Source: Gammaproteobacteria bacterium (GTDB taxonomy: Bacteria; Pseudomonadota; Gammaproteobacteria; Nitrosococcales; Methylophagaceae). Taken from it: a DNA stretch of 57,769 bases. Both the position numbers and the translations under genes were made by a program. The stretch spans positions 1-57,769 of the forward strand of contig JARGFJ010000012.1 in NCBI GenBank assembly GCA_029210875.1, read 5' to 3'. Below the pieces are notes generated by a model. It saw nothing but the letters and a program-made list of their open reading frames with translations, made no database searches and was not told where the DNA came from. Below are positions 35,385 to 47,754 of the stretch, piece by piece; position 1 is the first letter of the stretch, and each line of letters opens with the position of its first letter.

Positions 35385-36170
35385 TTAGGGGCGCTTGGTC
35401 ACTCTATGGAATAAGGGTTCGTGCACAGATTCACGCGAGAATCGCCAACACGCAATTAAAATTGCTACTGCTGAAAAGCCGATAAGCACAGCTATATCTG
35501 TTGTGATAGAAAAATCAGTATCCACATTTGGTACCGCATGTTTTAGTAAATCAACGCCATAACTGAACGGGTTGATTTGTACAATATAGTGCAAGTAAGC
35601 GGGTAATTGATTAACTGGATATAAGGCACCACTTAAGAAAAACACTGGGAAAATAAAGAAATTCATAATCACAGCAAAGTTATCAATACTCTTTGACCAC
35701 ACTGCAATTAAGCCGCCAATCGCAGCACAACAAATCGCTGTTAATAAAGCGGGTAATAACAACATTACAGCAATTTTAACGGATATCAATCCTAATATAA
35801 GAAGCAAAACCAATAGTAAAATTGCCTGTACCATAGCAGTCAATGTGGCTGCGATTAACTTTGAAATGACGATCCAATAATGTGCAATCGGTGCAATCAT
35901 CATCATTCGCATCACACCAAATTCTTTGTCATAGACCAAGGTCAACGCTGATAACAAGGATGCAAATAACAAGGTCATCGCCAAAATGCCTGGCACCAGG
36001 AAAGTTAAATAACCTTCTTGTTGAGAACCTTGCAGCATACTGCCAACCCCCGAACCGATAACTAACAACCAAATCATCGGCCGTACCATTGAACTAATTA
36101 AACGAGCACGTTGACGGAATAATTTGCTTAATTCTCGACCAACAACTGCTTTGACTGGGCGCCAACTCAT
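35385..36170 (-). CDS. ABC-2 type transporter permease of the pqq operon
   Basis: A 261-residue permease from [14 protein letters not shown], with six hydrophobic segments and the ABC-2 C-terminal block FFLSGALYPVNQLPAYLHYIVQINP. Its ATG overlaps the TGA of the ATP-binding gene (ATGA), so the two form one transporter. It is the last gene of the pqqBCDE-ABC transcript. Export of PQQ or a precursor is a natural inference from this coupling but is not proven by sequence. Confidence 0.88.
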   Translation of the reverse strand: MSWRPVKAVVGRELSKLFRQRARLISSMVRPMIWLLVIGSGVGSMLQGSQQEGYLTFLVPGILAMTLLFASLLSALTLVYDKEFGVMRMMMIAPIAHYWIVISKLIAATLTAMVQAILLLVLLLILGLISVKIAVMLLLPALLTAICCAAIGGLIAVWSKSIDNFAVIMNFFIFPVFFLSGALYPVNQLPAYLHYIVQINPFSYGVDLLKHAVPNVDTDFSITTDIAVLIGFSAVAILIACWRFSRESVHEPLFHRVTKRP

Positions 36171-37102
36171 ACTTGGTTTCCTTTGCTTGGATGACACACT
36201 ACCCATAAATAGACATCGTTTAAATTGGGACGACGCCATTGCATAGAAGAAATTGTGTCACCTAATGTCTTTTGTAACTGGAAAAAATCAACATCGTGCG
36301 CCGCGATTTTAAAACTCAATTGTTGATCTTCTTGAATTGGCGTCCCAAATAATGGTGATAGCTGGGCTATCGTTTGTTGCGGATCTGGCGAATTTATTTC
36401 TAAAATATATTCGGCTAATTGCTCAATTAATGTGCTCGGCTTACCACCCGATAAAAGTTGACCTTTCTGGAAAAAATCAACATGGTCACATGCTTCAGCC
36501 TCTTCCAAATAATGTGTTGTTAAAAACACCGTCATACCTTCATCTCGACGAAGTTGTTCAACAAAGCGCCAAATAGCACGTCGATTTGGCAAATCCAAAC
36601 CAATAGTCGGTTCATCAAGAAACAATACTTTAGGTTTATGCAGCACACCGCGAGCGATATCAACTGCACGACGTTGTCCGCCAGATAATGCCAGCAGTTT
36701 CTGTTTGCGTTTTTCCTGCAACCCAAACACGGACAATAACTCATCTATACGTTCATTTGCTTGCTTGGGAGGCAGGTTATACATCGCGGCTGCAAACTGT
36801 AGATTTTCATCAATCGACATGGTGCGATCAAGTGCCGAATCTTGAAACACTAATCCTACCATTCCTCGAATCGCTACCGGATTTGCTGACACTTGCTTGT
36901 TATCAATCCACGCTTCACCCGAGGTCGGTGATGTCATGGTTGTTAGCATGTGAATCGTTGTGCTTTTGCCAGCACCATTAGGCCCTAATAAGCCATAAAA
37001 TTGGCCTGCTTCGATGTCCAGATCAAGATTATTTACTGCCGTGGTTTGACTACCATAGTGTTTTGTCAAACCACGGGTACGTATCGCTAAATTAGAGTCC
37101 AC
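36167..37102 (-). CDS. ABC transporter ATP-binding protein of the pqq operon
   Basis: A 311-residue ATPase of the DrrA/CcmA type. Walker [10 protein letters not shown], signature LSGGQ, Walker B VLFLDEPT and the switch histidine in [12 protein letters not shown] are intact. The C-terminal ~70 residues form the extra domain usual in drug or lipid exporters of this class. It overlaps the end of pqqE by 11 bases, giving translational coupling to cofactor synthesis. Confidence 0.92.
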
Positions 37103-38276
37103 AGATTTGTTTGGAGTTTTTAGGGTTACGGAATACTAGAGGCTTGGCTTCAGTAATTGGTTTCTCAGCTTCTAGTCGACCACGTTCAAGTGCTTCTTCG
37201 ATTAGATGATGGTGTGGTGATTTAGAACACACTGGATCGGCATTAGTAGGATCACCTGTTAACATAAATGCCTGACAACGACAGCCACCAAAGTCTTTTT
37301 CTTTTTCATCACATGAACGACATGGTTCTGTCATCCAGTCAAAACCACGGAATCGATTAAAGTCATCAGACCCATTCCAAATTGCATCAATCGACATGTC
37401 TTTGACATTCGGTAATGACATACCCGGCAATTCACGCGCAGCATGACAAGGTAACGCTGTACCATCAGGCGTTACAGTTAAGAAGACATTACCCCAACCA
37501 TTCATACAGGCTTTAGGACGTTCTTCATAATAGTCAGGCACAACATAATATATTTTCATGTTGCCTTTTTGCTGTTGCTGATAGCGATGAGCAACTGCTT
37601 CTGCTCTTTCTAACTGTTCTTTCATTGGTAACAGTTGATCACGGTTATGCATGGCCCAACCATAATATTGTGTGGTTGCAAGCTCTACATAATCAGCATC
37701 AAGATTGATAGCAAGATCAAGGATATCTTCCATTTGATCAATATTTTGACGATGTGTTACAAAACACAACACCATTGGATAACCGTTGGCTTTCACTGCT
37801 TTCGCCATTTCAATTTTGTGTTGGAAAGCATCGGTACCAGCAATAAGATTATTTAAATCTTCTGAACTTGCCTGAAAACTAACTTGGATATGATCCAAGC
37901 CAGCTTGTTTTAATTCAGCTACTTTAGATGCATCCATACCAACACCTGATGTAATCAGGTTAGTATAGAATCCCATCTTCCGTGCTTCAGTAATCAGTTC
38001 AACCAAATCTGGACGGGTTAGAGGTTCGCCACCTGACAGCCCTAATTGAGTCGCACCCATTGCTCTGGCTTGACGGAATACATCAAGCCATTCTTCCGTT
38101 GTTAATTCTTTCTTAACACTGGCAAAGTCCATTGGATTTGAACAATAGGGACATTGTAAAGGACAGGCGTAAGTAAGTTCCGCCAACAACCATAAAGGCT
38201 GACGGATCTGATCGCGAACACTACCAATTGATCCGCCAATACTACCTGGGGCTTTATTCTGGTCTGATCCAGTCAT
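37092..38276 (-). CDS. pqqE: PqqA peptide cyclase PqqE (radical SAM)
   Basis: A 394-residue radical SAM SPASM enzyme that links the glutamate and tyrosine side chains of PqqA, the first step of PQQ synthesis. The CX3CX2C motif is in [12 protein letters not shown] near residue 40; auxiliary cluster cysteines appear in [34 protein letters not shown] and PVCSKSP. It overlaps pqqD by 23 bases, which fits the need for PqqD as peptide chaperone. Length is normal. Confidence 0.97.
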
Positions 38277-38538
38277 TGTTGTAGGCCTCCTCTAAAAATG
38301 TATAGACATCATCATCTAAATCCGCACCGTTGAAAGCAACTTTTAATTCTGCAATAAGTTCAGCAACGGTTTGTTTTTTTTCACTGATACGTTGCAAAAT
38401 TTCGCCAGCAGCGCCATTTAATTTGACCATACCTTCAGGGTATAACAGCACATTACAATTTTGAGCTGGCTCAAATTGAAAACGATAGCCAAGAGCTAAT
38501 ACAGGAACGCTTTCAGCATTAAAGACTGGTTCAGCCAT
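38254..38538 (-). CDS. pqqD: PQQ biosynthesis peptide chaperone PqqD
   Basis: A 94-residue protein with the PqqD/RiPP-recognition fold: [31 protein letters not shown] followed in shorter blocks by VAELIAEL and [14 protein letters not shown]. It binds PqqA and presents it to PqqE. It begins three bases after pqqC and overlaps pqqE. It is a separate gene here, unlike genomes with pqqC-pqqD fusions. Confidence 0.95.
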
Positions 38539-38541
38539 AAT

Positions 38542-39306
38542 TTAGTCCCACTGCCATCTTTCGACATTAACTTCAGTGCAATAGGGTGGACGATTTTCAA
38601 CATAAGCCATCCACATGGCATCACACATTGTCCATAAAACATCCAGTTTAAACTGTAAAACGCCTAGCATAAACTCTTGTTGTTCACGTGTTTTGTAGTA
38701 GTCCATAGTAATTTTCAGACCATTTAATACATCACGCGGTGCTTCGTGTAGACGCTTCTTAAAATAGCTATAGCCTTTCTCTTCAATCCAGGGATATTGA
38801 GAAGGCCAGTGATCAAGACGGTGTTTGTGAATAGTAGGTGCAAACAGTTCTGTTAAGGATGAACTTGCCGCCACTTGCCATGGTTGCTGTTTAGCAAAGT
38901 TGATGTAAGCATCAATCGCAAATCGTACCGCTGGTAACACATGTTGTTCCGACTCTAATTCTTCACGTGTCAGTCCAACGGCTTCGCCCAGTTGTAACCA
39001 CGCTTCTATACCACCTGGATCAGCTGGTTCACTACCATGACCTTCATGACCGTCATGATCCAAAATACGTTGCACCCAATGTCTACGTACTTCACGGTCA
39101 GTACAGTTAGACATGATCGCTGCATCTTTTACTGGGATCGCTGTCTGATAGTAAAAACGGTTTGCCACCCAGCCCTGAACTTGTTCTTTGGTCATCTTAC
39201 CGTCATGCATTAATTGATGAAACGGATGATGAAAATGATAAAGACTCGATTTCTCGCGAAGTTTCGCTTCAAATTCTTCATGTGTCCAAGGTGTTCTATC
39301 TGACAT
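38542..39306 (-). CDS. pqqC: pyrroloquinoline-quinone synthase PqqC
   Basis: A 254-residue cofactorless oxidase performing the last ring-closing oxidation in PQQ synthesis. Conserved blocks: [52 protein letters not shown] and [10 protein letters not shown]. Length equals the typical enzyme. It lies 37 bases after pqqB behind GAGGAATAATC. Confidence 0.97.
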
Positions 39307-39343
39307 GATTATTCCTCATACTATTTTTAATATTCAGTATTTT

Positions 39344-40258
39344 TTAGATCTCGAATTCCATGCCATCGTATGACGCTTCAATTCCGGCTGCTTCCAGCGT
39401 TTTACGCTGTGGCGATTCTTCATTCAAAATCGGATTGGTATTGTTAATATGGATCAGTATTTTGCGTGGTCTTTCCATGCTTTTTAAAATATCCATAATG
39501 CCACCTTCACTCGATTGATCGAGATGACCCATTTCTAATGCACGCTTATCACTAATACCTTCGTGAGACATTTCATCATCTGTCCACACCGTTCCATCAA
39601 CTAATACACAGTCGGCATTACGCATATACTCAAGTACATGCGGTTCTGCTTCACCTAACCCTGGAGCGTAAAACAGGTTTTTACCTGTACGTGTATCTTC
39701 AATTTTCATTCCGATATTATCGCCAGGAACTGTATTGTGACGATGCGGTGAATAAGGTGGCGCTTCACTCTTCAATGGTACTGCGGTGAAAATAAGTCCT
39801 TGTGCACTTGGTATCGTAAATGAGGATTCATCGGTAGCAATTTCATGATGATTGATCCCGCGGAAATGCCCAAGAATATTAAAAAGAGGGTAAGCCGTTG
39901 TTAAATCTTGTCTTACTGCTTCAGTTGTGTAGATTTCCCAAGGTGCAATATGTTCGCGTAATGTTAACAAGCCAGTGGTGTGATCTATCTGGGCATCAGT
40001 AATGACTATCGCGCTAATACCTGTATCTCGTACTGCCCTACCCGGCTGCAAAGCAGGAAAATCATCTATTTGTTTTTTAATATCAGGCGACGCATTAAAT
40101 AGAATCCAATCTGCGCCATTTGCACTAATGGCAATGGATGACTGGGTTCGACGACTTGCTTTAATCGTGCCTTCACGTACACCTTTACAGTTAACGCAAT
40201 TACAGTTCCACTGAGGGAAACCACCACCAGCACCAGACCCCATGACATGTATAAACAT
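39344..40258 (-). CDS. pqqB: PQQ biosynthesis protein PqqB
   Basis: A 304-residue metallo-beta-lactamase-fold protein that hydroxylates the tyrosine of the cross-linked precursor. It starts [21 protein letters not shown], diagnostic for PqqB, with later blocks [15 protein letters not shown] and [16 protein letters not shown]. It is preceded by an 18-base perfect hairpin and, further up, by three pqqA genes. Confidence 0.97.
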
Positions 40259-40279
40259 AATTTCTCTTCCGTCGTGTTC

Positions 40280-40326
40280 AAATTAAATCAGATGATTCTA
40301 CTGTCCAAAATCATCTGATTTAATTT
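40280..40326 (-). promoter_or_regulatory. 18-base-stem hairpin in front of pqqB
   Basis: Positions 40280-40297 and 40309-40326 are perfect complements (18 base pairs, containing AAATCAGATGATT) around an 11-base loop. The hairpin ends 21 bases before the pqqB start codon. There is no T-run, so it is more likely an RNA processing or stabilising structure than a terminator. It would separate the amount of pqqA message from that of pqqBCDE. Confidence 0.75.
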
Positions 40327-40336
40327 GATGAATTGC

Positions 40337-40361
40337 TTGGGGTTTCTTAATGAAACCCCAA
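40337..40361 (-). terminator. hairpin directly after the third (proximal) pqqA gene
   Basis: TTGGGGTTTC pairs with GAAACCCCAA around TTAAT. It lies 19 bases after the pqqA stop on the minus strand and is followed by a purine-rich stretch without a T-run. A partial terminator or 3'-stability element is likely, allowing some read-through into pqqB. Confidence 0.6.
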
Positions 40362-40379
40362 ACAAACATCAGATCGCTA

Positions 40380-40451
40380 TTAACGGTTGCAGATGTACAT
40401 TGTTACTTCAAAACCGAAACGCATGTCTGAATATTCTGGTTTAGTCCACAT
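40380..40451 (-). CDS. pqqA: PQQ precursor peptide PqqA, copy 1 (nearest pqqB)
   Basis: A 23-residue peptide starting [11 protein letters not shown] and containing the FEVTMY core, whose glutamate and tyrosine become the PQQ skeleton. The protein is identical to the two other copies (40665-40736 and 40925-40996), although the DNA differs at several third codon positions. The leader is different from those of copies 2 and 3 and uses GAGAGAAAATATT before the ATG. This copy is the only one not followed by a strong intrinsic terminator, so it is probably the one continuous with pqqBCDE. Confidence 0.97.
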
Positions 40452-40568
40452 AATATTTTCTCTCTTATAGTTAAAAGTTAATAAAAAACTGTATGCGTTA
40501 TTTCATACAGCGAGAGTCATCTTACTCGCTAGTGTTAGAGCTTACTTCAGGAATAACCGCCACTACAC

Positions 40569-40579
40569 TCAGGATTTTC
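40569..40579 (-). promoter_or_regulatory. shared upstream element of pqqA copy 1
   Basis: AAAATCCTGAG on the minus strand, 118 bases upstream of the pqqA start codon. The same 11 bases occur upstream of copies 2 and 3 at about the same distance (117 and 114 bases). A block CTCTAACAC resembling the downstream part of the other leaders follows at about 30 bases. A binding site for a common activator is likely. Confidence 0.55.
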
Positions 40580-40605
40580 CTGAATAACCTTAAAGCAGGT
40601 TCTGG

Positions 40606-40647
40606 AAATAAAAAAGGCTCTAATATCTTACGATATTAGAGCCTTTT
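40606..40647 (-). terminator. intrinsic terminator after pqqA copy 2
   Basis: AAAAGGCTCTAATATC (40612-40627) and its perfect 16-base complement (40632-40647) enclose TTAC; on the minus strand the stem is followed by TTTTTTATTT. It lies 17 bases after the stop of copy 2 and should end most transcripts there. Confidence 0.92.
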
Positions 40648-40664
40648 AGCGCTTTTCTACAATC

Positions 40665-40736
40665 TTAACGATTGCAGATGTACATTGTAACTTCGAAGCC
40701 GAAACGCATATCTGAATATTCTGGTTTAGTCCACAT
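40665..40736 (-). CDS. pqqA: PQQ precursor peptide PqqA, copy 2 (middle)
   Basis: The same 23-residue peptide as the other copies ([11 protein letters not shown] ... [10 protein letters not shown]). Its DNA is nearly identical to copy 3, including the ribosome-binding region GAGGTAATTATC before the ATG. It has its own leader (40795-40863) and its own terminator (40606-40647), so it is an independent transcription unit. Confidence 0.97.
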   Translation of the reverse strand: MWTKPEYSDMRFGFEVTMYICNR

Positions 40737-40794
40737 GATAATTACCTCTATTTATGATATTTAGTGTTAGTTATTCGGTTATTACCGATAACCT

Positions 40795-40863
40795 ACGATT
40801 GATACTTTACGCTTAGTGCCAAATAACCATTAGAGGAAAACACTCGACATTTCTCAGGATTTT
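40795..40863 (-). promoter_or_regulatory. duplicated promoter/leader block of pqqA copy 2
   Basis: Contains AAAATCCTGAG (40853-40863), TTTTCCTCTAA and an 18-base block GCGTAAAGTATCAATCGT (40795-40812), in the same order and spacing as at 41052-41120. Bases between the blocks differ, so selection appears to keep these parts. TATCAAT may be a -10-like box without a good -35, which would suit an activator-dependent promoter. Confidence 0.65.
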
Positions 40864-40866
40864 ACT

Positions 40867-40906
40867 CAAAAAAAAACCTGATACTTTTCAGTACCAGGTT
40901 TTTTTA
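40867..40906 (-). terminator. intrinsic terminator after pqqA copy 3
   Basis: On the minus strand AACCTGGTAC-TGAAAA-GTATCAGGTT, with one mismatch in the stem, is followed by a run of nine T (plus-strand A-run). It lies about 20 bases after the stop of copy 3 and separates it from copy 2. Confidence 0.9.
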
Positions 40907-40924
40907 TTGTTTTTAAACCGTTTA

Positions 40925-40996
40925 TTAACGGTTGCAGATGTACATTGTAACTTCGAAGCCGAAACGCATATCTGAATATTCTGGTTTAGTCCACAT
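40925..40996 (-). CDS. pqqA: PQQ precursor peptide PqqA, copy 3 (nearest the regulator)
   Basis: A third identical 23-residue PqqA. GAGGTAATTATC precedes the ATG exactly as in copy 2. It starts 137 bases after the stop of the response regulator at 41134 on the same strand, with its own leader block and terminator. Several pqqA copies are known in some methylotrophs, where the peptide is consumed stoichiometrically during PQQ synthesis. Confidence 0.97.
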
Positions 40997-41051
40997 GATA
41001 ATTACCTCATAGTTAATTAAATTTAAGCTTGACCGGCATTAACCGGTAACC

Positions 41052-41120
41052 ACGATTGATACTTTACGCCTGATAGCAAATAGATGTTAGAGGAAAATAC
41101 TCGATGTAACTCAGGATTTT
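41052..41120 (-). promoter_or_regulatory. duplicated promoter/leader block of pqqA copy 3
   Basis: AAAATCCTGAG (41110-41120), TTTTCCTCTAA and GCGTAAAGTATCAATCGT (41052-41069) are arranged with the same 40-base interval as in the copy 2 leader. AGGAAAATCCT at the upstream edge is a small inverted repeat. The block begins only 13 bases after the response-regulator stop codon, so pqqA has a promoter of its own and need not depend on the regulator transcript. Confidence 0.65.
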
Positions 41121-41133
41121 CCTTAGTGCCATT

Positions 41134-41772
41134 TTAAGCTTCTAATAACCCGCTTCGAATGGCCAATCGTGCTAATTCGGCAGAGTTTGACACATCCAAT
41201 TTTTGCTTAATACTGGTATGGTGTGTTCCTACTGTTTTAGGACTTAGGCTCAATACCTCGGCGATTTCATTGACGGTTTTGCCTTCTGCTAACAAGCGAA
41301 AAACTTCAAACTCACGTTGACTCAATACATCAAGCACATTGTCTGAGCCAGTCAATTTTTGCATTGCAATTTGTTGTGCAATCGCTGGATCAATACTCAT
41401 TTTACCTTGCGCTACCAACATCACGGCTTTAAGCATTTCTTCTGGCGCACTGCGTTTAGGTATAAATCCTTTTGCGCCAGCTTGTAAGGATCGAGATGTG
41501 AAGACACTATCTTCATGCACACTCAAAATGAGAATTTTTGCATCTGGATCGCGTGCAATAATCCGTTCGACAGCACCAATACCACCTATGCCTGGCATTG
41601 AAATATCCATGACAACGACATCTGGCTTATATTTTATGTAATCTTGTACCGCCTGCTCACCACTGTTGGCTTCAGCGACCACAGTCACATTATCACCATC
41701 CTCTAATAATCGGCGAAACCCCGCTCGCACTAACTCATGATCATCAACTAGCAATAAAGTCGTTTTATTCAT
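41134..41772 (-). CDS. NarL/LuxR-family response regulator (MoxX-like), second pair
   Basis: A 212-residue regulator with receiver domain (phospho-acceptor Asp56 in VMDISMP, lysine in FIPKRS) and a LuxR-type helix-turn-helix with LSQREFEVFRLLAEGKTVNEIAEVL and KTVGTHHTSIKQKL. Its start overlaps the kinase stop (ATGA). It lies immediately upstream of the pqqA array, making those promoters the first candidates for its targets. Similar LuxR-type regulators control pqq and alcohol dehydrogenase genes in other proteobacteria. Confidence 0.9.
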   Translation of the reverse strand: MNKTTLLLVDDHELVRAGFRRLLEDGDNVTVVAEANSGEQAVQDYIKYKPDVVVMDISMPGIGGIGAVERIIARDPDAKILILSVHEDSVFTSRSLQAGAKGFIPKRSAPEEMLKAVMLVAQGKMSIDPAIAQQIAMQKLTGSDNVLDVLSQREFEVFRLLAEGKTVNEIAEVLSLSPKTVGTHHTSIKQKLDVSNSAELARLAIRSGLLEA

Positions 41773-43484
41773 GATTTCTCTTCCTCTAATGGGATAGTGA
41801 CAACAATAGCAAGCCCTTGACCTAAGGCACTTGTTAATTCAAACGTGCCGCCCATACTACGGGCACGTTCACGCATTCCTAATAAACCAAAGTCTACGTC
41901 AGAATGAAAATCGTGTACTTCCATTCCTTTACCATTATCACTAATTTCAATCACTAACTGTTGTTTTAACAATTTCAGATTAAATTCATTCGCGACAGAA
42001 ACCTTAATTTCAGACGCATTGGCATGTCTGACAGCATTCGTTATGGATTCCTGTATCACACGAAATACGGTCATATTAATCGATTCATTCAGGCTATCTA
42101 ATTTGCCAGAAAAATCGACTATAAAACTAATCTCCGGTTGACGCTGGCGCCAGGCTTCGATGCTACCTTCAAGTGTGGGCACCAAACCTAAATCATCAAG
42201 CGGACTCGGTCTTAGTCGGGTAATCATATTGTGCACAACATCGTATATATGACTGGCAACATCAATAATCGCTTGTGCGCTTGCATGAATTTTAGGTTCA
42301 GTTTCCTGGGTTCGATTACGAATAAGCACCGCATCTGTTTTAATTGCAGTTAAACATTGACCCAATTCATCATGTAATTCACGGGCCAAGTGACGGCGTT
42401 CTTTCTCTTGCACTTCCGCCATATGCTTGGTTAATAACTGGGTTTCAATCAGTTGAAGTTTGGCCTTTTCAGCATGTTTATGTTCGGTTATGTCTCTAAG
42501 CGTACAAATCACACCTCGAACAACCAAATCAGAATCAAGCAATGGCACCGAAGAAAATAATAGTGATACTAATTCCCCCGATGTTTTTTGGAGCGTTGTT
42601 TCCAAATTTTCTATGGTATCGCAGTTTTCTAAAATACGCGCTATTTCAGTCCGTTGCCCAGCAAAGCCAAGATTAGCTAATTCTTCGCCCAATAACAGCG
42701 GCGTTTGGTCACTAAATAAGTGTTCTGCTGCTGGGTTACAAAACGTAATATGACCGGTGTGATCAAGTGATAAAATGGCATCTCCCGACTGTTTAACCAA
42801 TACGGCCAGACGACGATTTTCTTCAGTGCTTAATTCCAGAGCTTGCCCCATTCGATTGAATGTCTGGCTAATTTGATTCATTTCCTTCAAGGTAGATCGA
42901 GGTAATCTTAAATGGAGTTCCCCACGTTCAAAACCGGCTAAAGCCGTTAATAAGCCTTGCAGTGGACGCATTAACAAATCAACGCCCCAGTATAAAAACA
43001 GCCCGACAAATACCAAAACGCCTAAACCTAATTGAGAAATACTACGGACATCTAACCAGCGCTCGGCAATTTCCTGCAACGGTGCGGCATAAATAACCAT
43101 ATGACCATTGCCGAAGCGTTTAGTTAAGGGTTTGACTCGTGGAAAAATAACATTGATAAACCAGTCAGGCGGCTGAATTTCAACATCTGCCTTCGGCTCA
43201 CCTTCAAACAGTAGCCCATCGCCATCAAACACCAGAATGTGAAGACTACGAATTTCACTTAATGCCTTGACCATTTCATGCATTTGCTCATACACCGGCA
43301 AATCACGATTAAACGATACGCCGATTAATGACACTGAAATCAGGCGTGCCGCTGCGGTCATTGTCTCTTCGACTTCTGCTTGTACTGATTGACGAGCATT
43401 AGAAATTAAAACCCACGTGCTGGCAAATAAGGTAATGGCTAACAATACAGCAAAATATAAATTAACTTTTAACTTGAAGTTCAT
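41769..43484 (-). CDS. MoxY-like sensor histidine kinase with PAS domain, second pair
   Basis: A 571-residue kinase. Helix 1 at about 8-28, periplasmic region to about 148, helix 2 at 150-172, HAMP to about 222, a PAS domain (about 223-340, ILSLDHTGHITFCNPAAEHLF), HisKA_3 with His371 (LARELHDELGQCL) and HATPase (DNGKGMEV, GLLGMRERAR). The periplasmic PDWFINVIFPRVKPLTKRF parallels the other kinase at 22509-23837. Its start overlaps the soxZ stop (ATGA), tying the sensor to SoxYZ translation. Confidence 0.88.
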   Translation of the reverse strand: MNFKLKVNLYFAVLLAITLFASTWVLISNARQSVQAEVEETMTAAARLISVSLIGVSFNRDLPVYEQMHEMVKALSEIRSLHILVFDGDGLLFEGEPKADVEIQPPDWFINVIFPRVKPLTKRFGNGHMVIYAAPLQEIAERWLDVRSISQLGLGVLVFVGLFLYWGVDLLMRPLQGLLTALAGFERGELHLRLPRSTLKEMNQISQTFNRMGQALELSTEENRRLAVLVKQSGDAILSLDHTGHITFCNPAAEHLFSDQTPLLLGEELANLGFAGQRTEIARILENCDTIENLETTLQKTSGELVSLLFSSVPLLDSDLVVRGVICTLRDITEHKHAEKAKLQLIETQLLTKHMAEVQEKERRHLARELHDELGQCLTAIKTDAVLIRNRTQETEPKIHASAQAIIDVASHIYDVVHNMITRLRPSPLDDLGLVPTLEGSIEAWRQRQPEISFIVDFSGKLDSLNESINMTVFRVIQESITNAVRHANASEIKVSVANEFNLKLLKQQLVIEISDNGKGMEVHDFHSDVDFGLLGMRERARSMGGTFELTSALGQGLAIVVTIPLEEEKS

Positions 43485-43798
43485 TGCACTTTGGTTTCCA
43501 CTTTGCCTTTTTCCCCAAGGTTATCAACCCACCTAATCACAATAGTGTCATCACTAGCACCGCCAGCTATAACAAATGAAAAATAGGGATTACGCGACGT
43601 TGCTGTACCACATTTAATCGTCAGCACTTCTTCTTTATTACGCCAACATCGAATATCCTGAATAAAGTGAGCCGGGATCAATTCACCTTGTTCATTGTTT
43701 GCGCGTCCAGTATCCATAGGATGAGCAAGTAGAATTCGAACGGTGGTATCTCCCCCTTTTAACTTGGCACGTAAGCGATCTTTTACAGCGAGTCCCAT
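43481..43798 (-). CDS. soxZ: SoxZ-like sulfur carrier partner
   Basis: A 105-residue immunoglobulin-like protein. Blocks VRILLAHPMDTGRANNEQGELIPAHFI, NPYFSF and IVIRWVDNLGEKGKVE are diagnostic for SoxZ, which forms a heterodimer with SoxY in the periplasm. No signal peptide is present, as is normal since SoxZ travels with SoxY. It overlaps soxY by one base and the kinase by four. Confidence 0.93.
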   Translation of the reverse strand: MGLAVKDRLRAKLKGGDTTVRILLAHPMDTGRANNEQGELIPAHFIQDIRCWRNKEEVLTIKCGTATSRNPYFSFVIAGGASDDTIVIRWVDNLGEKGKVETKVQ

Positions 43799-44289
43799 TA
43801 TGCACAGCCTCCAATATCAACTTCGACAAATCGCGAGGCTTTATAGAGTTTTCCCTCAGCACGTATGACTGCAATCACATTTGAATCTTCAGCAATTTTT
43901 ATCATGGTTTTAAATGGTAATTTGATTGCTGAACTAAAGTCCAAACTCATCGCAAGAGGAAAGGGGTTTTTTTCCACAACAATGGCAACGCGTTCAATAT
44001 TGGCTAAATCACTATGGATTTCGATAGGAACAGAAGCCCCATTGACCGCATAACTTGGTGGCGAACCAACCTTAAATTTAACCACTGAACTATCAACCAC
44101 TTCCGCTTCACCCAATAAGGCTAATAATGCATCTTCCATCGTTTCAGCAGTAAAAGCGTCAGTTGGCCAATGAGCTAATAGTATTCGAGGCAGCAACAAA
44201 CCACTTGTTGCAATTAATGCCAAAGTGGATACTGATATCGCTTTTTTGAGAACACTGCGGCGCTGAATGTGTGTCGTATTATTCGCCAT
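43798..44289 (-). CDS. soxY: SoxY-like sulfur carrier protein
   Basis: A 163-residue protein with a twin-arginine-type signal (QRRSVLKKAISVS, hydrophobic to about residue 39). The mature domain has the SoxY pattern with VEKNPFPLAMSLDF. The C-terminal swinging arm ends VDIGGCA, so the cargo-bearing cysteine is present one residue before the end; the arm is shorter than the GGCGG of thiosulfate-oxidising SoxY. The soxAX, soxB and soxCD genes are absent from the window. SoxYZ-like carriers associated with quinoprotein dehydrogenases are known, and this pair may be of that kind. Confidence 0.9.
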   Translation of the reverse strand: MANNTTHIQRRSVLKKAISVSTLALIATSGLLLPRILLAHWPTDAFTAETMEDALLALLGEAEVVDSSVVKFKVGSPPSYAVNGASVPIEIHSDLANIERVAIVVEKNPFPLAMSLDFSSAIKLPFKTMIKIAEDSNVIAVIRAEGKLYKASRFVEVDIGGCA

Positions 44290-45731
44290 TATTTTTCCAT
44301 TTGAGCTAATACCCGTTCAATTTCTCGTAAGCGTGAACTGATCTTTGCCAATTGATAATCATCATCTTTAGCATAACCCGCTGCTATTCGTAACTGATCC
44401 GCTGCCTGATTTAAGCGACCAGATGCATAATAATACTCTGCAAACCAGAGATGAGATTCACTTTTTTGCCCCATGTCTCCGGTTGTTCTGGCTAATTGTT
44501 GATATAAACGACGTGACGAATTGCCCAGTTCTAATTGTCGTAACAATAAGTCTGTTGCCTTTTTAGGGTTATTGGCCTGAATCAGTGCTGCGACTTGATC
44601 TAATGATAAAGCCTGATCATCTGGATACAGACGCTGATTACGTTCATAAATATCTAATGCGGCTGATAATCGCCCGACGGCTATTTCAATTTTAGCCAAG
44701 GCTAATTGGTAACTTAATCGATCATCATCGGCATCAATTAAAGGCTGTAAAACCTGTCTTGCCTTCGTGGTATTACCTGCGGCTAATAACGCTAAACTAT
44801 AGCCATAACGTGTCGCTGACTCATTAACTGCATTGCCTGATTTTAGCGCACCTTCATAATATCGAATTAATTGATCCAGATTATCGGTTGTTAACACTCG
44901 GACTTTTTCACGCATCAAATAAAAGTGTAATGTATCGCCCAACTGTCGTTTTAATGGATAGGTTACTGCCCGACCTCGTGCATCAGCAATACGCTCTGTA
45001 GTCACAGGATGTGTGCGTAAAAAGTCGGGCACCGCAGCAGACGAATAAAACCGGCTTGTTTGCTGCAAACGTTCAAAAAAGCTTGGCATTGCTTGTGCGT
45101 CAAAACCAGATCTAACCAATGTCAACATACCTAAATTATCGGCCTCGGCTTCATTGCTACGTGTAAAGTTAATTTGTGACTGAATACCACCCGCTTGCAC
45201 CGCCATAAGTGCAGCTGTTCCAGCTCTAGGGTCAGCCGCTCCTAATAAAGCAGCAGCAATCATCGCCACGGTCATCGGAACACTCATTTGTTCCTGTTTT
45301 TCAAAACTTCGCAATAAATGGCGTTGAGTAATATGGGCAATCTCATGGGCTAATACCGATGCAACCTCATCCTCGGTTTGACTGGTTAATAACAATCCAC
45401 TATGCACACCAATAAACCCACCAGGTGCAGCAAAGGCATTAACAGAAGAGTTAGGCACCATAAAAAAAGTAAAAGGCAAATTAGGTGCATCACTATTAGC
45501 AACTAATCGATATCCAAGTAACTGTATGTAATTCACAATCTCAGGATCATCAATCAAATCAAAAGCATGTTGTAACTGCCAAAAATAAGATAAGCCGACA
45601 GCATATTCTTGTTGCGGTGAAATCAATGCGCCAGCACTATCACCAATTTCAGGCAAGGCAATATCACTGGCAGCATTGAGTGACGACTGCCAGTAAACCA
45701 AACCTGCTAAAAAAATGATAATTTTTTTCAT
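44289..45731 (-). CDS. BepA-like periplasmic M48 metalloprotease with TPR repeats
   Basis: A 480-residue protein with a signal peptide (FLAGLVYWQSSLNAAS), an M48 protease domain with zinc motif HEIAH (about residue 129, VLAHEIAHITQRHLL) and the third ligand region SNEAEADNLG, then C-terminal TPR repeats. This is the BepA (YfgC) architecture, which controls outer-membrane protein quality. It is the first gene of the minus-strand operon and overlaps soxY by one base (TAATG). Confidence 0.9.
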   Translation of the reverse strand: MKKIIIFLAGLVYWQSSLNAASDIALPEIGDSAGALISPQQEYAVGLSYFWQLQHAFDLIDDPEIVNYIQLLGYRLVANSDAPNLPFTFFMVPNSSVNAFAAPGGFIGVHSGLLLTSQTEDEVASVLAHEIAHITQRHLLRSFEKQEQMSVPMTVAMIAAALLGAADPRAGTAALMAVQAGGIQSQINFTRSNEAEADNLGMLTLVRSGFDAQAMPSFFERLQQTSRFYSSAAVPDFLRTHPVTTERIADARGRAVTYPLKRQLGDTLHFYLMREKVRVLTTDNLDQLIRYYEGALKSGNAVNESATRYGYSLALLAAGNTTKARQVLQPLIDADDDRLSYQLALAKIEIAVGRLSAALDIYERNQRLYPDDQALSLDQVAALIQANNPKKATDLLLRQLELGNSSRRLYQQLARTTGDMGQKSESHLWFAEYYYASGRLNQAADQLRIAAGYAKDDDYQLAKISSRLREIERVLAQMEK

Positions 45732-45833
45732 AGCTGATAGACAGTAAATGTTTAAACGGGTTCCAACAAGACAAGTGTATCGTTTCGGTTTATCATTAGT
45801 ACAATTATTTGCTTATAAACTATAGGAAATACC

Positions 45834-46064
45834 ATGTCAGAATATGATGTAGAACTTGATACGTCAGGCTTAAATTGTCCATTGCCCGTATTAAAAGCGC
45901 GTAAATCCTTATCAACTATGGAAACAGGTCAACGCCTGCATTTAATTGCAACCGATGCTGGCGCCAAAATGGATATTCCAGCCTTCATCAAAATGACAGG
46001 CAATGTATTAGTTGAAACGTCAGAACAAGATGGCAAACTACATTTTGTGCTGGAAAAAGGATAA
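45834..46064 (+). CDS. TusA-family sulfurtransferase
   Basis: A 76-residue TusA/SirA fold with the catalytic CPLP motif in GLNCPLPVLKARKSL and the C-terminal LHFVLEKG strand. These proteins hand on sulfane sulfur as a persulfide. AGGAAATACC precedes the ATG. It is divergent from the BepA-soxYZ operon and five bases upstream of a DsrE-like gene. Confidence 0.92.
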   Translation: MSEYDVELDTSGLNCPLPVLKARKSLSTMETGQRLHLIATDAGAKMDIPAFIKMTGNVLVETSEQDGKLHFVLEKG

Positions 46065-46069
46065 GCATA

Positions 46070-46534
46070 ATGGCTAAGAAACTTGCAATTATTGCTAGCA
46101 AAGGCACGTTAGATGGTGGTTATCCTCCCTTTATATTGGCATCAACTGCGGCAGCACTTGGCTTTGAAGTAAAAATTTTCTTTACCTTCTACGGCCTGCA
46201 ACTATTGAAAAAAGACTTATCGTTAAAAGTGTCACCGTTAGGCAATCCAGCCATGCCGATGCCCGTTCCGGTACCAAGCATTATTCAGATCATTCCTGGT
46301 CTTGAATGGTTTGCCACCTGGATGATGAAACGCAAACTCAAACAAAAAGGTGTTGCCAGCATCGAACAACTTCGTGAAATCTGTCTGGAATCAGATGTTG
46401 AACTGATCGCTTGCCAAATGACGTATGATCTATTTGATTTTAAACCAGACGATATGATCGAAGGCATCAGCCATGGTGGTGCAGCAACATTCCTCGAATT
46501 TGCTGGTGATGCTGACGTAACCCTGTACATGTAA
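46070..46534 (+). CDS. DsrE/DsrF/DrsH-like sulfur transfer protein (DsrE2 type)
   Basis: A 154-residue protein with the pattern LAIIASKGTLDGGYPPFILA, FYGLQLLKKDLSL and a C-terminal cysteine region VELIACQMTYDLFDF, then GGAATFLEFAGDADVTLYM. DsrE2 proteins pair with TusA in sulfur trafficking. A hydrophobic stretch around residues 60-80 (VPSIIQIIPGLEWFATWM) is also typical of this subgroup. It follows tusA by five bases and is probably co-transcribed. Confidence 0.9.
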   Translation: MAKKLAIIASKGTLDGGYPPFILASTAAALGFEVKIFFTFYGLQLLKKDLSLKVSPLGNPAMPMPVPVPSIIQIIPGLEWFATWMMKRKLKQKGVASIEQLREICLESDVELIACQMTYDLFDFKPDDMIEGISHGGAATFLEFAGDADVTLYM

Positions 46535-46773: not shown

Positions 46774-47754
46774 TCACGACATCAACGCTTTGATGTGTGC
46801 AATAACGGCATTTGCATTACCCTCAATGTTATAGCCGCCTTCCAAAACCGACACAATTTTTCCACCAGCATGACGTTGTGCAATTGTTTTGACCATTTCT
46901 GTCAGTTCAAAAAAGCCTTTATCGCTAATATCATGACAGCCCAACAAGTCATCTTTGCGGCTATCAAAACCAGCTGAAATCATCACCAGGTCGGGTTCAA
47001 AGCCAGTAGCAAGAGGTAATAATCTATCTCTAAACACAGAAATGATATCGTGATCTGTCGCTCCGCAGCCCAGATGAACATTGATATTAAATCCTTTGCC
47101 TTTTCCTTCGCCTATCCTCTCTGGTAAGCCAGTGCCTGGATAGGCAAACATGTCATGTGTAGAAAAATACAACACACTCGGATCTGAATAAAATGCCCAC
47201 TCGGTGCCGTTACCGTGATGATAATCCCAGTCAATTATCAGTATTTTCTTTTGCTGATAGTGCTGCTGTGCATAACGCGCTCCAATCGCGACATGGTTGA
47301 AGTAACAAAAGCCCTCTTCTTGCCCTGTGTTTTTTGCATGATGGCCTGGTGGACGAGAGGCACAAAACGCATTATTTACGTTGCCCATACAAACAGCATC
47401 TATTGCAGAAAGCACGCCCGAAGTCGCCAGCAAAGCCTGTTTATATGCCGTTAGCTGATGCGTTTTAATTTTATGTATGTGTTCGACTGAATGAATCTTT
47501 GTCAGCCAGGTTTCAGCATCACCTGTTGGAGAAATCAAGCTCATTTGTTTGTGAAGGTTTTCAGCTAATAGGTGTTGCTTTATTGCCTGATAACGCGCTG
47601 GAGATTCCGGGTGTGCATTCGATATTTTATGTGGCAAGAAGCCATCATCGATGACCAGGCCAGTATTACTAAGCTGTTGATTGGCTCGAACATCAGCGGC
47701 TAAAGCGCTGGATGCAGATAACTTAAGAAACTGTCTTCTACTCAATACAGACAT
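46774..47754 (-). CDS. histone-deacetylase-family protein with a Tat-like signal
   Basis: A 326-residue class II-type deacetylase fold. Active-site blocks: RPPGHHAKNTG, IDWDYHHGNGTEWAFY (zinc Asp and His) and SAGFDSRKDDLLG. All zinc ligands appear present. The N-terminus MSVLSRRQFLKLSASSALAA is a twin-arginine-type signal with possible cleavage after VRA near residue 25. Most bacterial relatives are cytoplasmic and act on acetylated polyamines or proteins; a periplasmic acetyl-amide hydrolase would be unusual. The gene is alone, divergent from the efflux operon. Confidence 0.88.
   Translation of the reverse strand: MSVLSRRQFLKLSASSALAADVRANQQLSNTGLVIDDGFLPHKISNAHPESPARYQAIKQHLLAENLHKQMSLISPTGDAETWLTKIHSVEHIHKIKTHQLTAYKQALLATSGVLSAIDAVCMGNVNNAFCASRPPGHHAKNTGQEEGFCYFNHVAIGARYAQQHYQQKKILIIDWDYHHGNGTEWAFYSDPSVLYFSTHDMFAYPGTGLPERIGEGKGKGFNINVHLGCGATDHDIISVFRDRLLPLATGFEPDLVMISAGFDSRKDDLLGCHDISDKGFFELTEMVKTIAQRHAGGKIVSVLEGGYNIEGNANAVIAHIKALMS

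Follow-up and report, generated by a model that had tools for sequence, protein, structure and literature searches.

soxYZ genes joined to a sensor kinase and response regulator, mostly ahead of pqqA, at a former sox locus of the Methylophaga family

Introduction

Among the described systems closest to the locus reported here is the truncated Sox operon of gammaproteobacteria, bepA-soxXYZAB, often with tusA-dsrE2 diverging from it. Our locus lies in a 57,769-nucleotide stretch (hereafter the window, at its full length; contig JARGFJ010000012.1 of GenBank assembly GCA_029210875.1) of a 2.44 Mb genome of the Methylophaga family, and joins soxY and soxZ to genes for a sensor histidine kinase and a response regulator, ahead of a pyrroloquinoline quinone (PQQ) biosynthesis cluster. 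It shares with the Sox operon the flanking genes, the order of bepA, soxY and soxZ, and the SoxY carrier cysteine; it differs in that soxX, soxA and soxB are missing at the locus and SoxB is missing in the genome, the SoxY arm is shortened to GGCA, SoxZ has a cysteine at position 63, and the kinase and regulator genes stand in the soxA-soxB position.

A kinase-regulator gene pair adjoining sox genes is also known, as TspS/TspR of Acidithiobacillus. That system is of sigma54 type, whereas the window has a LuxR-type regulator and a HisKA_3 kinase with a LapD/MoxY-like domain, both encoded downstream within the soxYZ operon and mostly just ahead of pqqA. MoxY/MoxX and related methylotroph kinases share with our system the HisKA_3 kinase, the LuxR regulator and a periplasmic domain that in the window kinase resembles LapD_MoxY_N at just under the Pfam cut-off, and a relative (∼450 residues) is encoded, with its regulator, next to a dehydrogenase gene on contig C19 of the same genome; the window kinase differs in an extra PAS domain with near-invariant cysteines and in its coupling to soxYZ. 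The fused quinoprotein dehydrogenase-associated SoxYZ-like carrier (e.g. PP_2677) is another SoxYZ-type carrier in a PQQ setting, but the window SoxY and SoxZ are two separate proteins that score far under its model (TIGR04557; 57.7 and 52.3 against a cut-off of 140). A fused carrier is encoded elsewhere in the same genome, on contig C6 beside a SoxH-related gene (276.7 bits). A sulfur signal acting on PQQ genes is described for Hyphomicrobium denitrificans, where the sulfane-sulfur repressors SoxR and sHdrR control a second pqqADE cluster, and such a second cluster is on record for Methylophaga as well (PMC12423496); those are cytoplasmic ArsR-type repressors that work without a kinase. Among the open-access papers listed in full-text searches, judged by listings and selected passages and with subscription papers mostly outside that coverage, we recognised no description of soxYZ coupled to a kinase before pqqA.

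Results

Layout of the operon

The first-pass annotation, made from the window's letters alone, had described bepA-like, soxY, soxZ, kinase and regulator genes joined by overlaps of 1–4 bases, with tusA and dsrE diverging from the protease gene. Both descriptions are confirmed: the overlaps are 1 base for bepA-soxY and for soxY-soxZ and 4 bases for soxZ-kinase and for kinase-regulator, and the divergent genes start at 45834 and 46070.

44289..45731, minus strand: bepA-like gene for an M48 metalloprotease with TPR repeats, first gene of the operon (Pfam Peptidase_M48, 119 bits)
43798..44289, minus strand: soxY (Pfam SoxY, 87.4 bits), with a single cysteine, in the C-terminal GGCA arm
43481..43798, minus strand: soxZ, passing SoxZ_true (TIGR04490; 100.5 against 76), with the family-specific Cys63
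41769..43484, minus strand: sensor histidine kinase with LapD/MoxY-like periplasmic domain, HAMP, PAS, HisKA_3 and HATPase (Pfam)
41134..41772, minus strand: LuxR/NarL-type response regulator (Response_reg 96.5 bits, GerE 68.1 bits); a sigma54 domain was not seen
45834..46064, plus strand: tusA, sulfurtransferase-like, diverging from bepA (Pfam TusA 75.6 bits; under the NCBIfam TusA equivalog cut-off, 54.1 against 78)
46070..46534, plus strand: dsrE2, sulfur carrier, diverging from bepA (NCBIfam SulfCarrDsrE2, 256.7 bits against a cut-off of 210)

The protease is under the NF052400 BepA cut-off (394.9 against 570), with the M48 and TPR architecture present. SoxY, whose leader looks by eye to be of twin-arginine type, ends in GGCA rather than GGCGG and is under the SoxY_true cut-off (TIGR04488; 110.1 against 125), as are the SoxY proteins of five family relatives, two of these without the cysteine. 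A plasmid search with SoxY as query gave no match. Beyond dsrE2, at 46774–47754, the window encodes a histone-deacetylase-fold protein (PF00850) whose start resembles a twin-arginine export signal, and which is near dsrE2 in some relatives too.

Conservation across the family

The family sample comprised 57 genomes, including Methylophaga thiooxydans, M. sulfidovorans, M. aminisulfidivorans, M. muralis and M. lonarensis alongside metagenome bins. SoxY-family proteins are present in 56 of the 57 and are of two main kinds, fused (open frames of ∼265 residues or more) and separate; for the separate form linked to bepA, loci were retrieved from 51 relatives. Wherever the retrieved sequence extends far enough, bepA-soxY-soxZ-kinase-regulator is found in this order in four genera, one kinase-less clade excepted, and an arrangement kept in relatives of four genera exceeds chance. 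The recurrence of the soxYZ-kinase adjacency, which the first-pass annotation had made decisive for its proposal, extends well beyond one genome: the kinase directly follows soxZ in all 42 relatives that reach past soxZ and have the SoxY cysteine, with the 4-base overlap kept in 39 of them, and the one-base soxY-soxZ overlap is kept in 45 of 50. Genome-wide, 43 of the 57 genomes encode the kinase (match at E 1e-60 or better), and exactly these 43 also encode the regulator at 80% identity or more; a 44th genome, G024, has the kinase gene cut by a contig end. Kinase identity across the family falls to 57%.

On the upstream side, tusA diverges from bepA in 41 of 44 kinase-type loci, the remaining three being cut by contig ends, and dsrE2 follows tusA in 34 of the 40 able to show it. 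On the downstream side, 32 of the 40 loci that could be tested have pqqA starting at most 320 bases past the regulator, two further loci being at contig ends; adjacency to pqqA, as first annotated, thus holds in those 32 and fails in eight. The genes after the regulator vary, and bepA-soxYZ-kinase-regulator is constant. From these overlap and adjacency counts, soxYZ-kinase-regulator is a tight unit and pqqA a looser neighbour.

Descent from a sox operon

We are close to certain that the locus is a dismantled thiosulfate-oxidation operon in which SoxYZ is left over and the kinase and regulator stand in the place of soxA-soxB. The outside set consisted of SoxY neighbourhoods from other gammaproteobacteria, the first 40 loci being used for gene-order comparison. 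In these, bepA is upstream in 23, tusA diverges from bepA in 18, and the full bepA-soxX-soxY-soxZ-soxA-soxB order is present in 14; dsrE2 is also present in other gammaproteobacterial sox loci. NCBIfam models confirmed SoxX, Y, Z, A and B in L095, SoxA and SoxB in L119, and SoxX in L093. The tusA, dsrE2 and bepA genes are part of this older sox neighbourhood, not new wiring. None of the 51 fetched family loci, some of them short stretches, has soxX, soxA or soxB. The first-pass annotation had found none of SoxAX, SoxB and SoxCD here; for SoxB this now extends to the whole of the window's genome (G000), with SoxB found in 9 of the 57 family genomes, while SoxX and SoxA were sought at the relatives' loci only, not genome-wide, and SoxCD was not searched. 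Because soxX, soxA and soxB are gone from family loci that share their flanks with the outside loci, the kinase and regulator occupy the soxA-soxB position, in translational coupling with soxZ, and the reading of a repurposed sox operon is well supported.

The carrier proteins have also changed. SoxY ends in GGCGG in 40 of 40 outside loci and in GGC followed by A, G or S in the family loci that keep the cysteine. SoxZ Cys63 is shared by the family's kinase-type loci (43 of 43) and its kinase-less ones (8 of 8), and is absent from its 8 true Sox loci and from all 39 outside loci compared; the residue in other SoxZ proteins is mostly tryptophan. Cys63 might form a redox pair with Cys51.

Two loci of another family, L088 and L097, have bepA-soxY-soxZ without soxX, soxA, soxB or a kinase (uvrB, at 1080 bits, is next in L088), which is an intermediate state of the dismantled operon. 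A further locus, L112 (G150), has bepA-soxX-soxY-soxZ and then, within 3 kb and in place of soxA-soxB, frames of 498 and 971 residues that match the kinase and regulator profiles and are perhaps one hybrid kinase.

A kinase-less clade and the SoxY cysteine

Eight genomes (G015, G017, G018, G021 and G026–G029) keep soxY-soxZ, with msrA next and bepA kept where visible (7 of 8), and have lost the kinase, regulator, pqq genes and ABC transporter pair from the locus; one such soxZ-msrA junction was inspected in the sequence. Genome searches in these eight found no kinase ortholog, no PqqC, no methanol-dehydrogenase match over the cut-off, no exact pqqA box (the leader element described below) and no fused SoxYZ; soxXYZAB is present elsewhere in the genome in six. 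In all eight loci D, N, V or A stands in place of the SoxY arm cysteine, which all 44 others, including the window, retain; a kinase is visible in the same stretch in 43 of the 44. In FastTree trees, for which seven of the eight were usable, the kinase-less genomes group together inside the kinase-bearing family (support 0.996 for BepA and 0.986 for SoxYZ), so the cysteine loss is one evolutionary event. Since PqqC and the methanol dehydrogenases were lost with it, the cysteine is tied to the whole kinase-PQQ-dehydrogenase block and not to the kinase alone.

We considered redundancy with a true SoxYZ as the sole cause of the cysteine loss and found it insufficient. SoxB and a second SoxY are present in G012 and G030, both of which nevertheless retain cysteine and kinase, so a true Sox system alone does not remove the cysteine; conversely, G017 and G018 (67% and 81% complete) have lost the cysteine with no SoxB detected.

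Stand-alone soxYZ beside other two-component systems

Outside the family, 80 SoxY matches were fetched in descending order of match quality, skipping G223, whose match lies at a contig end; L294 duplicates the stretch of L091 and was left out, which gives 79 outside loci. A kinase and a regulator lie within 5 kb at 14 of 26 stand-alone soxYZ pairs, compared to 4 of 46 pairs with sox genes and 0 of 7 bepA-only pairs. The kinase and regulator profiles were built from the window proteins and five of the same loci (L086, L087, L096, L109 and L113), which therefore match by construction; in the 39 later-fetched loci, a two-component system is present at 8 of 12 stand-alone pairs, 1 of 22 pairs with sox genes and 0 of 5 bepA-only pairs. 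The Fisher value of 4e-5 is a guide only, as contig ends can hide sox genes and loci of the same genome or family are not independent.

The stand-alone pairs with kinase and regulator are L087, L091, L096, L109, L113, L116, L288, L292, L296, L299, L305, L306, L311 and L312, and such loci are often ordered kinase-regulator-soxY-soxZ on one strand. By Pfam, the kinases of L113, L096 and L087 consist of dCache, HAMP and HisKA, and the regulators of these and of L109 are of sigma54 type. A different pair, a kinase of phosphonate-binding type with a LuxR regulator, is encoded at L086, which is a locus with sox genes. Several genomes carry two soxYZ copies: L113 and L119 in G193, L108 and L112 in G150, L121 and L115 in G185, and L109 and L105 in G080. 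One copy is in a bepA-sox locus and the other elsewhere, beside a two-component system in G193, G150 and G080. The copies are 99–100% identical in three genomes (G193 and G150 among them) and 89–93% identical in G080; the near-identity suggests recent duplication or gene conversion.

The sensor kinase

The window kinase scores 24.8–24.9 for LapD_MoxY_N against a Pfam cut-off of 25, and 23 of 28 kinase homologs match the domain with E-values of 0.01 or lower; the HAMP score misses its cut-off in the window kinase and exceeds it in five relatives. The only Protein Data Bank sequence match of the periplasmic domain is a weak one, to 4u64 at E 0.11, which we take to be a LapD-type periplasmic domain. 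LapD holds a periplasmic protein through that domain, so that a protein partner such as SoxYZ is plausible for a LapD-like kinase. On the cytoplasmic side, all 42 aligned kinases have Cys327 in the PAS domain and Cys377 in the kinase core, and 41 of them also have Cys249 in the PAS domain; 21 paralogous kinases have gaps at both PAS cysteine positions.

In a whole-kinase structure model (pLDDT 73, pTM 0.34), which supports these parts only, the PAS and kinase parts resemble solved histidine kinases. Among the structure matches listed for that model none is to the periplasmic domain by itself, which is uninformative on its fold. A model of the periplasmic domain alone (mean pLDDT 46) was too poor to search and was left unused.

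The PQQ cluster and the pqqA box

Downstream of the regulator, the triple pqqA array, pqqBCDE and ABC exporter pair of the first-pass annotation are confirmed.

41111..41124, minus strand: pqqA box 1, a near-palindromic element, exact match, 9 bases past the regulator's stop
40925..40996, minus strand: pqqA copy 1, read from the sequence
40854..40867, minus strand: pqqA box 2, two mismatches
40665..40736, minus strand: pqqA copy 2, read from the sequence
40569..40582, minus strand: pqqA box 3, exact match
40380..40451, minus strand: pqqA copy 3, read from the sequence
39344..40258, minus strand: pqqB (TIGR02108, 408.4 bits against 245)
38542..39306, minus strand: pqqC (TIGR02111, 347.5 bits against 240)
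38254..38538, minus strand: pqqD (TIGR03859, 93.2 bits against 46)
37092..38276, minus strand: pqqE (TIGR02109, 568.1 bits against 381)
36167..37102, minus strand: ABC transporter ATPase of PQQ-cluster type (TIGR03864 PQQ_ABC_ATP, 207.7 bits, under the cut-off of 302)
35385..36239, minus strand: ABC-2 permease (ABC2_membrane 102 bits; TIGR03861 PedC 155.6, under the cut-off of 241)

The three pqqA copies encode identical 23-residue peptides; with these precursor genes present and PqqB, C, D and E all over NCBIfam cut-offs, this is a PQQ biosynthesis operon. The distance from the regulator to the pqqA leader, first given as 13 bases, is corrected to 9 bases from the stop to the conserved box. 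This box has the approximate form (A/C)AGGAAAATCCT(G/T)A and lies 109–136 bases ahead of the ATG. Within two mismatches it is found in 57 of 58 pqqA leaders and in 0 of 58 shuffled leaders, and exact sites number 115 in the 57 genomes (at least one site in 46) compared to 8 when the pattern is reversed. In the window by itself, the 5 sites at up to two mismatches are weak evidence (1.67 expected; 3 of 100 shuffles reach 5). When 20 exact sites were inspected in context, 16 were found to precede pqqA or a pqqA-like gene and four to precede other genes: of the 16, eleven belong to orphan pqqA genes, two to the pqq clusters of G005 and G050, and three to a pqqA-like gene, which in two of those three loci is the first gene of a second cluster whose PqqD and PqqE score over cut-off. 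The box is largely pqqA-specific. That the window regulator reads it is a guess from position.

One orphan pqqA with its own box lies in the window's own genome, away from the pqq cluster (L240, contig C27, near 24585), and ten other inspected loci likewise have an orphan boxed pqqA. At four sites (L251, L252, L253 and L256) an exact box has no pqqA-like gene nearer than 330 bases; judged by eye, one precedes a cytochrome b561-like frame and one a receptor-like frame. They are possible further regulon members or chance occurrences.

Discussion

Our leading reading, a best guess to which we give a little less than an even chance, is that SoxYZ tunes the kinase and that the regulator in turn sets PQQ precursor supply. 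SoxY's single cysteine would be loaded or oxidised by periplasmic sulfur species, and SoxYZ so altered would dock on the kinase's LapD/MoxY-like periplasmic domain and tune it; the phosphorylated regulator would then act on the pqqA boxes, and this control would set the precursor supply of PQQ for periplasmic methanol dehydrogenases. The route from SoxYZ through the kinase to PQQ supply had been put forward in the first-pass annotation and is partly supported: in its favour are the conserved adjacency, the SoxY cysteine kept in 44 of 44 loci and lost in 8 of 8 without the kinase, the LapD-like domain of the kinase and the box in nearly all pqqA leaders examined. A sulfur link to PQQ also fits the published response of M. 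thiooxydans, in which transcripts of pqqB, D and E and some Sox proteins, not named in the accessible text, were higher on dimethylsulfide than on methanol, together with the missing soxAB of Methylophaga (PMC6548844). We think it unlikely, although worth stating, that SoxYZ is specifically an accessory periplasmic sensor whose swinging-arm cysteine, either sulfur-loaded or oxidised, is presented to the LapD/MoxY-type kinase, such that sulfur from dimethylsulfide or thiosulfate sets PQQ supply and methanol oxidation.

Several observations weigh against a sulfur signal passing from SoxYZ to pqqA. Adjacency alone does not separate input from output, and pqqA is not next after the regulator in 8 of the 40 testable loci. 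No box is found in the bepA promoter at up to two mismatches. The 42 aligned kinases have no conserved cysteine in the periplasmic part, which makes sulfur transfer onto that part unlikely; two sensing routes are open, SoxYZ docking outside or sulfur reaching inside. All 8 genomes that lost the cysteine also lost PqqC and the methanol dehydrogenases, so that the kinase is not singled out, and the cysteine-less SoxY is still a full-length frame in seven of the eight loci (the eighth is cut by a contig end), which makes another role for SoxY there seem likely. PQQ genes are also described as methanol-induced in the same M. thiooxydans source (PMC6548844), and the substrate effect is not clear-cut. 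Signalling from SoxYZ to the kinase, action of the regulator on the box and the cytoplasmic TusA-DsrE2 branch of the first-pass proposal are all predictions, and dsrE2 is missing in 6 of 40 loci.

The main rival, doubtful in our judgement but with an appreciable chance of being right, is an ordinary two-component system that senses a small molecule itself and has SoxYZ and PQQ as its outputs; SoxYZ would then be co-transcribed as a periplasmic sulfur or thiol carrier, working for example with XoxF-type quinoproteins in thiosulfate or tetrathionate chemistry. Regulators near sox genes have a precedent in TspS/TspR, which adjoins the sox cluster in Acidithiobacillus (PMC6335251), and the two-component systems near 14 of the 26 soxYZ pairs that stand alone, against 4 of the 46 that sit with sox genes, agree with this (those checked are of sigma54 type), as does the joint disappearance of the SoxY cysteine, PqqC and the dehydrogenases. 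In Methylophaga, moreover, soxAB is missing and soxYZ kept, and XoxF was proposed to act on thiosulfate (PMC6548844). However, the genome already has a fused quinoprotein-associated SoxYZ-like carrier, well over the cut-off that the window SoxY falls far below, and it is the soxZ-kinase link that is tightest and the regulator-pqqA link that is looser. A historical accident, in which a decaying sox operon came to be followed by the kinase, regulator and PQQ block with no functional contact between them, we consider improbable: BepA and SoxYZ do persist without the block in eight genomes, but order and overlap are kept across four genera while kinase identity falls to 57%, the cysteine is retained only where the block is present, and bepA-soxYZ-kinase-regulator stays invariant while the genes past the regulator vary.

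The pqqA box may instead be read by another LuxR-type regulator, such as one beside methanol dehydrogenase genes, with the soxYZ-linked system aimed at something else. We consider this unlikely, if only somewhat, and it is compatible with both the sulfur-signalling and the output explanations, so that its chance is not exclusive of theirs. Seven related regulators in the genome (E 1e-40 or better) could each read the box, orphan pqqA genes far from the locus bear the same box, and four genomes (G005, G025, G046 and G050) have the box but lack the kinase, regulator, bepA ortholog, dsrE2 and window-type SoxY. Two of these, G050 and G005, have the box before pqqA, yet their assemblies show no trace of kinase or regulator. 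The absence of the neighbouring genes as well tempers this evidence, as does the low completeness of three of the four (82% for G005, 69% for G025 and 83% for G046); G050 is 99% complete, in 8 contigs. Since the contigs of G050 and G025 start only 523 and 127 bases ahead of the box, their missing genes could be unassembled DNA; in G005, ∼1.8 kb of contig ahead of the boxed pqqA carries a complete reductase-like frame and not the regulator, so the contig-break argument fails there. For the window regulator as reader speak the box only 9 bases past its stop and the joint absence of box and regulator ortholog from 8 of 8 kinase-less clade genomes, though pqqC is gone there too. We had considered G050 as a natural loss of SoxYZ and kinase with PQQ kept, and dropped it, as its bepA ortholog and dsrE2 are missing too and its contig starts so close upstream; it may reflect true loss or unassembled DNA, and if the loss is true, it favours the SoxYZ-kinase bond and argues against the window regulator as sole reader of the box.

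Methylophaga keeps SoxYZ, the carrier of the Sox pathway, without its loading enzymes, and the family thus offers a clean case of carrier minus loaders. Given the stand-alone soxYZ genes beside two-component systems of other types, orphan SoxYZ pairs may have a wider signalling use. If the proposed link between SoxYZ, the kinase and PQQ supply is true, it would connect methanol oxidation in marine methylotrophs with the chemistry of dimethylsulfide and thiosulfate.

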